Shown piece by piece: positions 19,894 to 24,491 of a DNA stretch of 64,000 nt. Positions within the stretch are counted from its first letter, which is position 1, and each line of letters opens with the position of its first letter. Source of the DNA: Bacteroidota bacterium (GTDB lineage Bacteria > Bacteroidota > Bacteroidia > B-17B0 > Aurantibacillaceae); NCBI GenBank assembly GCA_013298715.1, contig JAAFIQ010000004.1:1-64000 (forward strand). The letters are read 5' to 3'. The notes beneath the pieces were generated by a model. It saw nothing but the letters and a program-made list of their open reading frames with translations, made no database searches and was not told where the DNA came from. Position numbers and translations under genes: made by a program.

Positions 19894-20143
19894 GTAAATC
19901 AACTTTATAATTTCTCAAAATTTTCCTTCTTGCGAAATATCAAAAAAATTCTTTATATAAAATCATTCACTTACATATATTAAACCATTTTATTTTTTCA
20001 CTCCTCCAATCCAAAAAAATCTCAATTATTTTTTAAAAAATTCAACAACCGCTACAAGCATTGATTTTATTGATATTTCCCGCATTTCAAAATTCGATTT
20101 TTTATATTTCACTTCCCAAAAAAATATTTTTTCTCAAAAAATA

Positions 20144-20176
20144 TTTGGAAATGTAATTTTTATTGCATTATCTTTG
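20144..20176 (+). promoter_or_regulatory. promoter of the methionine operon
   Basis: A Bacteroidota-type promoter: TTTG at 20144-20147, 21 bp, then TATCTTTG (TAnnTTTG) at 20169-20176. Transcription would start near 20183, shortly before the riboswitch. The roughly 250 bp before it, back to the 61-residue gene, are very AT-rich and show no gene. Confidence 0.65.
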
Positions 20177-20199
20177 TACCAGAATTAATTACAAAGTGT

Positions 20200-20332
20200 A
20201 GTTAATTTATTAAGATGCGACGAGAGAATAGGCTCTATAACTCGCAAGCAACCAACTAAAAGCCCGATAAAAAGGGTTGGAAAACAGGTGCTAAATCCTA
20301 CCTCTGATGAGAGTAAGAGGAAAAATAAATTA
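20200..20332 (+). ncRNA. SAM riboswitch (S-box-like, SAM-I family)
   Basis: The leader contains the S-box core elements in order: an internal stem with GCAAGCAACC, a variable hairpin (CCAACT...GGGTTGG), GGTGCTAAATCCTACC and GATGAGAG. A perfect 8-bp closing stem pairs AATTTATT (20204-20211) with AATAAATT (20324-20331). Known S-box RNAs bind S-adenosylmethionine and shut down methionine genes. Here the three downstream genes make homocysteine from aspartate semialdehyde, which fits. The closing stem ends 6 nt before the ATG of a short leader ORF, so ligand binding could also control that ORF's translation. Confidence 0.85.
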
Positions 20333-20337
20333 GAAAA

Positions 20338-20451
20338 ATGAAAACTACAACAAATCAAAAATCAAATCAAAGAAAAGCTCACCAGGCTTCTTTATTTCTA
20401 ATCCAAGCACTTGGCTACAACTGTATGTGTTGTTGCTGTAGTATGTGCTAG
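20338..20451 (+). CDS. Cys/Met-rich leader peptide
   Basis: A 37-codon ORF opens with ATG 6 nt after the riboswitch closing stem. Its first half is polar and basic; its last nine residues are CMCCCCSMC, six cysteines and two methionines, directly before the TAG stop. A run of regulatory codons at the end of a short ORF is the classic form of a ribosome-mediated attenuator. Polycysteine upstream ORFs sensing cysteine are established in mycobacteria. Here the peptide precedes genes that fix sulfur into homocysteine, so stalling at Cys or Met codons could sense charged tRNA-Cys or tRNA-Met. A secreted or metal-binding peptide is the main alternative; no signal peptide is seen. Confidence 0.6.
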   Translation: MKTTTNQKSNQRKAHQASLFLIQALGYNCMCCCCSMC

Positions 20452-20530
20452 GGTTTCTTCCATTTTTTTGGCTTTTATAATCTTAGCACGTTAATGCGCG
20501 TAATTTCTTATGCCCTTAAAAGCCCTATTC
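20445..20530 (+). promoter_or_regulatory. possible attenuator: alternative hairpins after the leader peptide
   Basis: The end of the leader ORF, GTGCTA (20445-20450), can pair with TAGCAC (20484-20489). Overlapping segments can instead pair as TAGGG with CCCTA and as GGCTTTTA (about 20470) with TAAAAGCC (about 20517). These pairings compete, as expected if a ribosome paused on the Cys codons decides between structures. No strong U-run follows, so control would be by translation or a Rho-like mechanism. The pairings were found by eye and no folding energy was computed. Confidence 0.35.
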
Positions 20531-20560
20531 CATTTTTCATTAATCAAAAAAAATTAATTT

Positions 20561-20782
20561 ATGCAATCAAAAATTAAAACATATAACACCAACCTTCTAC
20601 AAAACAAAGAATTTTCAAATTCATTGCAGTTAGAGGCAACTCTTGTTAATCAAATAAAAGGCGGTCATTCCCCATACTACCTTACAAAAGAAAAAGGCAA
20701 ACGCTTAGTAGCAACTGTTAATCTACTTACCAAATCAGAATTAAACATTCTTAACACAAGCGGCTTCACAACAAATAACTAA
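20561..20782 (+). CDS. small hypothetical protein in the met leader
   Basis: A 73-residue ORF between the leader peptide and the sulfhydrylase gene. It has no recognised domain, no signal peptide and no Cys; its middle reads LEATLVNQIKGGH. It could be a second regulatory small protein, or a chance ORF in a long AT-rich leader. The position, 44 bp before metY and in the same direction, is the only functional hint. Confidence 0.4.
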   Translation: MQSKIKTYNTNLLQNKEFSNSLQLEATLVNQIKGGHSPYYLTKEKGKRLVATVNLLTKSELNILNTSGFTTNN

Positions 20783-20793
20783 AAAATCAATAA

Positions 20794-22173
<1,380 letters not shown>

Positions 22174-22180
22174 AATAAAA

Positions 22181-23239
22181 ATGGAACAATTGCTATTTAA
22201 AAGTAATCACGTATTTCAATTAGAGAGTGGGCAAACTTTGCCCGCTCTTCAGTTGGCTTACCATACTTACGGAAAATTAAACAAAGATAAATCGAACGTG
22301 GTGTGGGTTTGCCATGCACTAACTGCAAATAGCAATGTGTTTGAGTGGTGGCCTGATTTGTTTGGTGAGAACGATTTATTTAATCCAAATGATCATTTCA
22401 TTGTTTGTGTAAACAATTTAGGTTCTTGCTACGGCAGTACTGGTGCGCTTTCTATTAATCCATACAACAATCAACCGTGGTATTCTTATTTCCCAAACAT
22501 TACTATTAAAGATATGGCCAATGCCTTGGATTTGTTACGAATTAAGTTAGGCATAGAAAAAATTCACACCATTATTGGTGGTTCGCAAGGTGCACAAATA
22601 GTTTTAGAGTGGAATGTAAAGCAACCTAATTTATTTCAACACACTATAATTACAGCAACCAATGCCGTGCATTCCGCTTGGGGCATAGCATTTAACGAAA
22701 GCCAGCGCTTAGCAATAAAAGCAGATAGAACCTATTATGCACACACCCCTGATGGTGGAAAAAAAGGATTAGCTGCTGCAAGAAGTATTGCTTTGCTGAG
22801 TTACAGAAATTACAACACTTACAACACTTCTCAAACAGAAACTGCAAGCGATAAAACAGACAATTTTAATGCAGCAAGCTACCAACGCTATCAGGGCGAA
22901 AAATTAGTGAATCGCTTTGATGCTTATACGTATGTAGTGCTTGCAAACGCAATGGATTCGCACAACTTAGGCAGAGGAAGTATTTCTATTGAAAATGCCT
23001 TGCAGCAAATTACTGCAAATACCTTGGTAATAGGCATTAGTAGCGATTTGTTATTTCCTGTTCACGAACAAAAATTTATTGCACAACATGTTAAAAAAAG
23101 CGAGTACCACGAAATTGATTCGCTTTATGGACACGATGGCTTTTTAATAGAAACTAAAAAAATTGCAGAAGTTATAAAACAATTTTATAGCAACGTAAAC
23201 TTAACTAACAAAACAACTAATAATTTAATTGAAGCATAA
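22181..23239 (+). CDS. metX: homoserine O-acetyltransferase
   Basis: A 352-residue alpha/beta-hydrolase-fold acyltransferase. The nucleophile serine is in GGSQGAQIVLEW near residue 133. NLGSCYGSTGALSINP is the family substrate loop, and GHDGFLIETKK carries the catalytic His near 314. MetX activates homoserine with acetyl-CoA, supplying the substrate of the adjacent sulfhydrylase. The first codons follow metY closely and the stop lies one base before the start of homoserine dehydrogenase. Confidence 0.92.
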   Translation: MEQLLFKSNHVFQLESGQTLPALQLAYHTYGKLNKDKSNVVWVCHALTANSNVFEWWPDLFGENDLFNPNDHFIVCVNNLGSCYGSTGALSINPYNNQPWYSYFPNITIKDMANALDLLRIKLGIEKIHTIIGGSQGAQIVLEWNVKQPNLFQHTIITATNAVHSAWGIAFNESQRLAIKADRTYYAHTPDGGKKGLAAARSIALLSYRNYNTYNTSQTETASDKTDNFNAASYQRYQGEKLVNRFDAYTYVVLANAMDSHNLGRGSISIENALQQITANTLVIGISSDLLFPVHEQKFIAQHVKKSEYHEIDSLYGHDGFLIETKKIAEVIKQFYSNVNLTNKTTNNLIEA

Positions 23240-23240
23240 T

Positions 23241-24491
23241 ATGAGTAAAATTTTAAATATAGGATTGTTTGGCTTTGGCTGCGTAGGGCAAGGTCTTTAC
23301 CATGTGCTAAATAATAGCACAGGTTTTAAAGCCAACATAACAAAAATTGGTGTAAAAGATAAAAGCAAAAAAAGAAGTGTAAATGCAAACCTAATTACTT
23401 TTGATAAATGGGAGATTTTAAACGACCCAACTATTGATGTAATTGTAGAATTAATTGATGATGCTGAAGAAGCATTTAGCATTGTGAGTGAAGCCCTAAA
23501 AAGAAAAAAACACGTGGTAACAGCAAATAAAAAAATGTTGGCATACAATTTACAAGCACTCTACAAATTACAACAAGAAAATAACGTTTCTTTACTTTAC
23601 GAAGCATCGGCCTGTGGCAGTATACCTATTATTAGAAGTTTAGAAGAATATTTTGATAACGAAGAGTTAAAAAAAGTTTCGGGCATTTTTAACGGAACAA
23701 CAAATTACATACTTACAAAAACAATAAACGAAAAATTATCTTACGTAGATGCTTTAAAACAGGCACAAGATAAGGGGTTTGCAGAATCAGATCCAACAAA
23801 CGATGTAGAAGGATTTGACCCAAAATTTAAAGCAATTATAATTGCCTTGCATGCATTTGGAATTATTATCAATCAAAAAGATGTATTTAATTTAGGAATT
23901 ACGGCATTAAGCAATGAGGATATAAACTATGCCGCCGAAAAAAAATTAAAAATAAAATTAACTCCAGTTATTCAACGACTAGCGAACAATAAAGTTACAG
24001 CCTTTGTAATTCCACAATTTGTAAAACAAACAAATCAATTATTTAATGTTGAGAATGAGTTTAATGGTATAATTGTAGAAGGAGAATTTTCGGGCGAACA
24101 ATTTTTACAAGGAAGAGGTGCCGGTAGCTACCCAACTGGAGCGGCTGTGTTATCAGATATTTCAGCACTTTCGCACGGTTACAAGTACGAATTTAAAAAA
24201 CACTTACAGCAACAGGCAGAAGGATATACAAATGATGTTGTATTTGAAATTTATCTCCGTTACAATTCAACCCAAGAATTAAAACACTTTAATTTTTTAG
24301 AAATAAAAGAACATTACAAAGCAAATACGTATAACTTTATAATAGGAAAAATTAATTTACAAAGTTTAATTGAGGCAGAACATTCAATTAAATCAAATAA
24401 AATATTTATTGCTTTGGTGAGTGATGAAGTGCGTCTACATAACTCAATAAAAGAATTGGTGATAGAGGAAAGTTTGGAAGAAATAAACTAG
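23241..24491 (+). CDS. hom: homoserine dehydrogenase
   Basis: A protein of about 416 residues. The NAD(P)-binding GLFGFGCVGQGL lies at the N-terminus, VVTANKKML follows, and the homoserine dehydrogenase signature region FNGTTNYIL then AESDPTNDVEGFDPKFK is intact. No ACT regulatory domain follows, only a divergent tail of about 80 residues, so feedback control may come from the riboswitch. It makes homoserine from aspartate semialdehyde. The ATG one base after the metX stop is preferred to an overlapping in-frame TTG. This is probably a methionine-dedicated paralogue of the threonine enzyme. Confidence 0.9.
   Translation: MSKILNIGLFGFGCVGQGLYHVLNNSTGFKANITKIGVKDKSKKRSVNANLITFDKWEILNDPTIDVIVELIDDAEEAFSIVSEALKRKKHVVTANKKMLAYNLQALYKLQQENNVSLLYEASACGSIPIIRSLEEYFDNEELKKVSGIFNGTTNYILTKTINEKLSYVDALKQAQDKGFAESDPTNDVEGFDPKFKAIIIALHAFGIIINQKDVFNLGITALSNEDINYAAEKKLKIKLTPVIQRLANNKVTAFVIPQFVKQTNQLFNVENEFNGIIVEGEFSGEQFLQGRGAGSYPTGAAVLSDISALSHGYKYEFKKHLQQQAEGYTNDVVFEIYLRYNSTQELKHFNFLEIKEHYKANTYNFIIGKINLQSLIEAEHSIKSNKIFIALVSDEVRLHNSIKELVIEESLEEIN

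Follow-up and report, generated by a model that had tools for sequence, protein, structure and literature searches.

Canestrari et al. reportedly described, in 2020, polycysteine upstream open reading frames (uORFs) of mycobacteria that are leaderless by the title of that work. Such uORFs and the actinobacterial cysteine leader peptides of PMC1262725 resemble the locus analysed here in being short ORFs with a Cys run near the stop codon, in lying upstream of sulfur amino acid genes and, mostly, in having no clear terminator. Control of a short leader ORF by a riboswitch, with the leader in turn setting expression of the next gene, has been described for the B12 riboswitches of metE and ppe2 in M. 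tuberculosis (PMC11260477); the available text of that paper mentions no amino acid codon run, so the leader ORF there is probably not a second sensor. Upstream of cysS in Rhodobacterales, uORFC-8-2 combines a Cys-codon leader ORF with alternative folds (PMC8632094, in the part available), and the tandem attenuators of Salmonella mgtCBR are short ORFs in one long leader that control transcription behind them (PMC3641672, likewise). Closer to the present organism, the accessible portion of a flavobacterial transcriptome study gives clues for leader-peptide attenuation before amino acid operons generally (PMC9723704), and short ORFs reminiscent of leader peptides are mentioned for Bacteroides in the part of PMC7366714 at hand. 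Each element on its own has a precedent, in Cys-run leaders, in Cys attenuators and in a leader ORF under riboswitch control, and most descriptions treat riboswitches and leader peptides as separate solutions. Here the aptamer appears to give its output through the start of a codon-sensing peptide.

A Cys/Met leader ORF begins directly behind a SAM riboswitch

The window, the whole stretch of 64,000 nucleotides of Bacteroidota DNA that was analysed, carries on its + strand a SAM riboswitch aptamer (S box, RF00162) at 20204..20331. The Rfam match scores 65.1 bits (E 6.9e-13) against a gathering threshold of 44.4 bits, which places it in the SAM-I class, and its P1 strands, the first and last 8 bases of the aptamer, consist of A-U pairs only. 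The ATG of a 37-codon ORF at 20338 follows 6 nt past the last aptamer base (20331). This leader ORF (20338..20451, + strand) encodes MKTTTNQKSNQRKAHQASLFLIQALGYNCMCCCCSMC, stops at TAG (20449-20451) and is conserved in relatives; its Cys/Met codon run, C29 to C37 (CMCCCCSMC), occupies 20422..20448 on the same strand and is evident from the sequence and from column conservation among 20 leaders of the genus.

Upstream of the aptamer, a putative −7 box, TATCTTTG (20169..20176, + strand), fits TAnnTTTG, the consensus that the available part of PMC9723704 gives for Bacteroidota promoters, and is likely the −7 element. All 20 genus leaders have TAnnTTTG in the 80 nt before the aptamer, and for this reason aptamer and leader ORF are probably on one transcript; a sigma-70 scan of the window returned no + strand promoter. 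With this promoter-like element ahead of it and the 128-nt aptamer in between, the leader ORF is probably not leaderless.

Downstream, also on the + strand, lie metY (O-acetylhomoserine sulfhydrylase, 20827..22173; TIGR01326, 652.5 bits against a cut-off of 495.1), a metX-like gene (homoserine O-acetyltransferase, 22181..23239; TIGR01392, 340.5 bits, below the cut-off of 500) and hom (homoserine dehydrogenase, 23229..24491; NF004976, 333.8 bits against a cut-off of 205, for 23244-24491). The best MetX-model matches of the metX-like product are all below their cut-offs, and Pfam assigns it to the alpha/beta hydrolases. By the ORF list, hom starts at a TTG at 23229 or at an ATG at 23241 or later. 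An earlier note made from the sequence had placed a 37-codon ORF ending in CMCCCCSMC 6 nt after a SAM riboswitch and upstream of metY-metX-hom; the Rfam match, the ORF list and the family matches confirm this arrangement.

That note had not mentioned a second small ORF, of 73 codons (20561..20782, + strand, from the ORF list), which begins 109 nt after the leader stop, lies between leader and metY, and has no Pfam or NCBIfam match. In most relatives from the genus, the leader is followed by a similar ORF of 72-80 codons (NLL..., KGGH.P.Y..., NLLT), even where metX rather than metY comes next. By eye, a small hairpin of variable sequence sits just 5′ of this second ORF in many leaders of the genus, namely L029, L030, L035, L039, L044, L060, L066 and L070.

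Set beside the described systems, the window ORF has a Cys run near its stop, as the mycobacterial polycysteine ORFs do, but differs from the mycobacterial and actinobacterial Cys leaders in the SAM aptamer directly before its start, the Met codons in its run, the metY-metX-hom genes behind it and its Bacteroidota host; it also differs from the mycobacterial ORFs, leaderless by title, in that it is probably not leaderless. The M. tuberculosis riboswitches respond to B12 rather than SAM. For uORFC-8-2, the accessible part of PMC8632094 describes no riboswitch, and its terminator stem with a U run is missing in the window. The mgtCBR leader, as presented in the available text of PMC3641672, has two ORFs, no SAM aptamer and other genes behind it. 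With S-box (SAM-I) RF00162 riboswitches the window shares the aptamer, and its output appears to be the start of the leader ORF. A SAM riboswitch joined to a Cys/Met leader was not found in the one open-access collection searched, which is weak evidence of novelty since most subscription papers lay outside that search. The earlier note knew of no such system in Bacteroidota; we also found none for that phylum, but a riboswitch-controlled leader ORF as such has been described in another (PMC11260477, in the part available).

The leader ORF is largely confined to one type of SAM riboswitch upstream of metY and metX

Loci were gathered by RF00162 searches of the window's genome and 60 relatives (56 of the 60 relatives matched) and of 295 genomes of the class (210 matched), and by a MetY search of the same 295 genomes at E ≤ 1e-100 (65 matched). 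From the class RF00162 search, the loci examined were the metY leaders, the top 30 by score and 8 further ones that we picked. Leaders of metY genes from the class MetY search were added, as were named metY loci, the best 80 of at least 591 confirmed. Rfam served to confirm the riboswitches; of the 80 named loci, all were scanned for motifs and 40 given to Rfam, with 38 matches. The 181 riboswitches counted (L107 was dropped as the same riboswitch as L116) comprise 77 upstream of metY or metX, 83 upstream of other named targets and 21 without a recognised target. A leader was scored when an ATG lay within 25 nt of P1 and the last 14 codons of its ORF held at least 3 Cys, or at least 4 Cys plus Met. 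Structures were analysed for 63 leaders; one of these, L060, was entered by name and also satisfies the rule. All counts describe the loci collected, not the class as a whole, and Fisher and t values assume independence, which related genomes do not have, so that their p-values are too small.

The pair of a SAM aptamer and, a few nucleotides on, the start codon of a short ORF ending in Cys/Met codons proved to be conserved before metY or metX. A leader ORF follows 54 of the 77 SAM riboswitches upstream of these two genes and 0 of the 83 upstream of other named genes, which rejects the idea that it is a general feature of SAM riboswitches; among the 21 without a recognised target, 9 have one. 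Divided by P1 type, the leader occurs behind 59 of 77 riboswitches with an NTTTAT type P1 versus 1 of 93 with a CTTAT type, and terminator-like hairpins within 220 nt show the reverse distribution (14/77 versus 75/93). Within the genus, 20 of 21 riboswitches with the window's P1 type carry the leader, versus 0 of 38 with the other type. The distance from P1 to the ATG is 0-16 nt (median 10) in the 63 leaders, whose ORFs have 28 to 53 codons.

The earlier note had made its proposal depend on conservation, and this holds: across the genus, relatives retain the ORF, its terminal Cys codons (with TGT and TGC interchanging) and its spacing from the riboswitch, and the same features turn up in 12 families of the class (f1, f2, f15, f29, f31, f35, f39, f40, f41, f48, f49 and f54). 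Of the 38 named loci, 21 have a leader, the carriers including Pedobacter (five), Mucilaginibacter (three), Sphingobacterium (two), Pontibacter and Dyadobacter, the last with two Cys and two Met only. Further carriers are uncultured Cyclobacteriaceae, Cytophagales, Saprospiraceae, Lewinella, Bacteroidales and other Bacteroidetes genomes.

The rule was failed by 23 of the 77 metY/metX riboswitches. These include two Algoriphagus loci, Emticicia, three f15 genomes (G129, G160, G297), G319, two Cytophagales genomes and an Ignavibacteriae locus, as well as Spirosoma, which has a short ORF with one Cys-Met pair, and G076, with two Cys. Others have a CTTAT or GTTAT type P1, for example Niabella and Flavisolibacter, and their leaders show a hairpin with a U run. 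Also failing are the serial leaders L256 and L261 and the Met-Arg rich L262. Two misses do contain a run: L200 has CCCC further from the stop, and Bernardetia (L192) has a polycysteine ORF, but no ATG lies 25 nt or less from where the Rfam match stops. The leader can be lost or replaced.

The end of the leader peptide is conserved as a Cys/Met codon run

Counted from the end in the 20 genus leaders, codons six, five and four encode Cys in 19, 18 and 18 cases, with both TGT and TGC in use, the penultimate codon is Met in 16 and the last Cys in 17. Across the 63 leaders, Cys makes up 44% of the last 12 residues versus 0.8% of the rest. Met, which the earlier note had mentioned in passing, is enriched as well (14.7% versus 2.2%), and in a few leaders Met runs take the place of Cys runs (L232, AMSMRMRMHMHLPTC; L145, MRMRMPMSCFSYMCA; also L227 and L262). 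In six alignable leaders the first 27 codons vary almost freely, with 164 nonsynonymous versus 23 synonymous codon-pair differences; over the last 12 codons there are 29 nonsynonymous versus 13 synonymous differences, and changes fall at third positions 33 times versus 15 and 15 at the other two. The leader has what is expected of an attenuator, codons for the end products of the pathway (Cys and Met) in a short ORF, here as a conserved run. Such a pattern, judged from the sequences, points to a codon sensor for the two sulfur amino acids rather than to a working protein.

metY leaders without a SAM riboswitch resemble attenuators

The class MetY search also yielded 24 metY leaders without an Rfam SAM riboswitch, and about half of these contain short mixed Cys/Met ORFs, often in tandem and before terminator-like hairpins. 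For closer analysis we used 17 riboswitch-free-type leaders, chosen because a Cys/Met ORF had already been seen in them (12 of the 24 class metY leaders plus 5 named ones; L123, with a DCCCGWR ORF, was left out). In this chosen set, 23 of 27 Cys/Met ORFs have a terminator-like hairpin behind them, and in 16 of these 23 the sequence after the first Cys pairs with the 5′ arm of the terminator at p ≤ 0.05 (mean z −2.59), as an antiterminator would. The metY leaders without a direct riboswitch look like classical attenuators. Cys/Met-codon sensing recurs at metY in this group, and the window is the version with the aptamer directly on the leader start.

Predicted folds place a hairpin at or just past the leader stop

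When the window transcript was folded with a ribosome stalled in the run, a hairpin of 13 pairs, H1, was predicted (20443-20455 with 20479-20491; 20443..20491, + strand), whose 5′ arm spans the final Met and Cys codons together with the stop. With a ribosome over the stop, as at termination, the predicted fold instead pairs 20470-20477 with 20517-20524 (20470..20524, + strand), which excludes H1. The part of the window's leader after the stop is more stable than shuffled sequence (z −6.1), and the same stretch is more stable than shuffles across the 63 leaders (mean z −1.50). A stop-adjacent hairpin can fold in the stalled state in 53 of the 63, and in these 53 its mean probability is 0.81 when stalled, 0.65 when untranslated and 0.05 once a ribosome occupies the stop. 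It is halved in the untranslated state in only 10 of the 53; for the window it is 0.96 untranslated versus 0.99 stalled, and because these are nearly equal, folding alone leaves unexplained how SAM would shut H1 off.

Several other regularities were sought and rejected. Inclusion of the stop codon in a stem is barely more regular than in shuffles (1.48 versus 1.31 paired nt; at least 2 paired in 32/63), and for that reason we limit the claim to a hairpin at or just past the stop. Pairing of the P1 3′ strand with the leader region is not beyond chance (mean z 0.06), and a hairpin inside the coding end is weak against synonymous shuffles (mean z −0.78). The consensus fold of the 13 divergent genus leaders amounts to almost nothing (−1.19 kcal/mol), versus −27.56 kcal/mol with several hairpins for the 7 close ones.

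Scanning 20100-20830 for terminators gave 0 terminator-like sites, and the only candidate flagged in the window is a weak hairpin (−7.6 kcal/mol) that overlaps the Cys codons and has a U run behind it. The SAM-I family also has translational platforms, so a missing terminator does not exclude the window riboswitch from it. No one terminator common to all 63 leaders was found. In 18 of the 63 leaders there are 20 candidate terminators, for 3 of which a full three-state logic is predicted (L114, L018 and L024), two of them in close relatives. The terminator of L114, with six U behind it, has a predicted probability of 0.85 untranslated, 0.02 stalled and 0.98 with a ribosome at the stop; with another end point and pair set these values become 0.55, 0.02 and 0.90. 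As modelled, L114 would fit the expected logic, being off at high SAM, off at plentiful cysteine and on when both are short. The window's genome encodes Rho, and the accessible part of PMC1262725 proposes a Rho-dependent output for actinobacterial Cys leaders. The output step may be Rho-dependent or translational, and it may differ between lineages.

A SAM-gated leader peptide as a proposed expression platform

The explanation that we favour, with a probability of roughly 0.6, is a leader-peptide attenuator gated by SAM. With SAM bound, the A-U-rich P1 would close beside the AUG and keep the ribosome off, the P1 3′ strand and the short A-rich stretch after it occupying the ribosome landing place; according to the available part of PMC9976891, Bacteroidia ribosomes do not use Shine-Dalgarno pairing. 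The expression platform would then be the leader's start codon rather than a terminator. At low SAM the leader would be translated, and a shortage of Cys-tRNA or Met-tRNA would make the ribosome slow or stall on the Cys/Met codons at its end. A stall early in the run would free the stop region for H1, and a ribosome at the stop would cover it; through these alternative folds, low SAM together with a short supply of Cys- or Met-tRNA would increase read-through into metY-metX-hom. That the final step is transcription read-through is our best guess, which we prefer because leaders lacking a riboswitch seem constructed for it, and it may differ between lineages. The earlier note had proposed that a SAM sensor and a Cys/Met-tRNA sensor are joined in one transcript. 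We infer the same, since the ORF occupies the place at which most of the other SAM riboswitches collected have a terminator and since riboswitch-free leaders of the same gene resemble Cys/Met attenuators.

Two other readings keep the SAM gate and change what follows it. Gating of the leader by SAM could act on the translation or stability of the next ORF, by coupling or reinitiation. Such a translational output would agree with the lack of a terminator in the window scan, with three-state terminators in just 3 of 20 candidates and with the M. tuberculosis ppe2 riboswitch, which, in the available text of PMC11260477, controls a leader ORF whose translation the next gene needs. We nevertheless think it unlikely, as the same-gene leaders without a riboswitch have terminators, L114, L018 and L024 predict terminator control and 109 nt separate the window leader's stop from the next ORF. 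A reversed response to cysteine appears improbable to us. Here H1 would be the off element and metY would be made at low SAM and sufficient cysteine, sparing sulfide for cysteine when it is short. This would make biochemical sense for a sulfide-using enzyme, and H1 in the window does form in the untranslated as well as the stalled state and disappears only when the ribosome has reached the stop; Met codons in the sensor, however, would shut methionine synthesis during methionine starvation, and the related attenuators as well as L114 predict the usual polarity.

The remaining readings separate the leader from the riboswitch or from attenuation. Serial leaders in which an attenuator is followed by a riboswitch (L256 and L261) show that the two can coexist, and the aptamer might act otherwise, with the Cys/Met leader merely lying downstream as an independent sensor; against such independence, which we consider quite improbable, the start codon follows P1 by 0-16 nt in 63 leaders and riboswitches with the ORF mostly lack a terminator. 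Cys/Met-rich peptide ends could bind metals, and the leader could be a functional Cys-rich small protein, binding metal or sulfur, under SAM control. Very little speaks for this when the first 27 codons drift, the window ORF has no Pfam or NCBIfam match, Met runs substitute for Cys runs and similar runs occur in attenuator-like leaders. Finally, for a chance ORF behind the riboswitch speaks that 18 of 5000 dinucleotide shuffles of the window's leader alone give an ATG ORF equally close to P1 whose last 14 codons include at least 3 Cys; leaders with at least 3 Cys, however, follow 57 of 80 metY-type riboswitches against 0.35 expected from shuffles, and conservation leads us to reject chance, to which we give next to no credence.

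SAM-gated attenuation by a leader peptide, extended beyond the window, would amount to a new expression platform, a generalisation to which we give about even odds: in much of Bacteroidia, a SAM-I aptamer would control the start codon of an amino-acid-sensing leader peptide and so compute "SAM low AND Cys/Met-tRNA short" before metY-metX-hom, and at the same gene other lineages would rely on tandem Cys/Met attenuators or on an attenuator placed in series with a riboswitch. If true, this is a two-input gate for sulfur amino acids in a group without Shine-Dalgarno pairing. Because named isolates of Pedobacter, Mucilaginibacter and Pontibacter have the arrangement, it is directly testable.

Further leaders and riboswitches in the collected loci

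Apparent tandem Cys/Met attenuators, with one or two ORFs that mostly precede terminators and with no SAM riboswitch, were seen in the metY leaders L117, L119, L124-L127, L136 and L155-L158. Upstream of metY in Balneola (L256) and in a Bacteroidetes genome (L261), an attenuator is followed in series by a separate SAM riboswitch. Cys/Met ORFs also occur in a Gemmatimonadetes metY leader (L253, IFMCMCMCIPPARG), without a terminator by the rule used, and in a Prevotellaceae metY leader (L252, MAMYMCCMCYPVHAG), with one.

The other SAM riboswitch of the window's genome (L002) lacks a Cys/Met leader ORF and is followed by an ordinary terminator hairpin plus U run. In L002 (G000, C23) and L065 (G036), such a terminator-type SAM riboswitch is followed by an ORF of 440-441 codons (MVKKENQNIEFKESW...) instead of metH. 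A second NTTTAT type SAM riboswitch, L043 (G026, C34), precedes a 495-codon non-methionine ORF and has no Cys run. Matches to SAM-II (RF01726) barely over threshold lie near metY on the opposite strand in L155 (43-149, − strand) and L160 (475-577, − strand).
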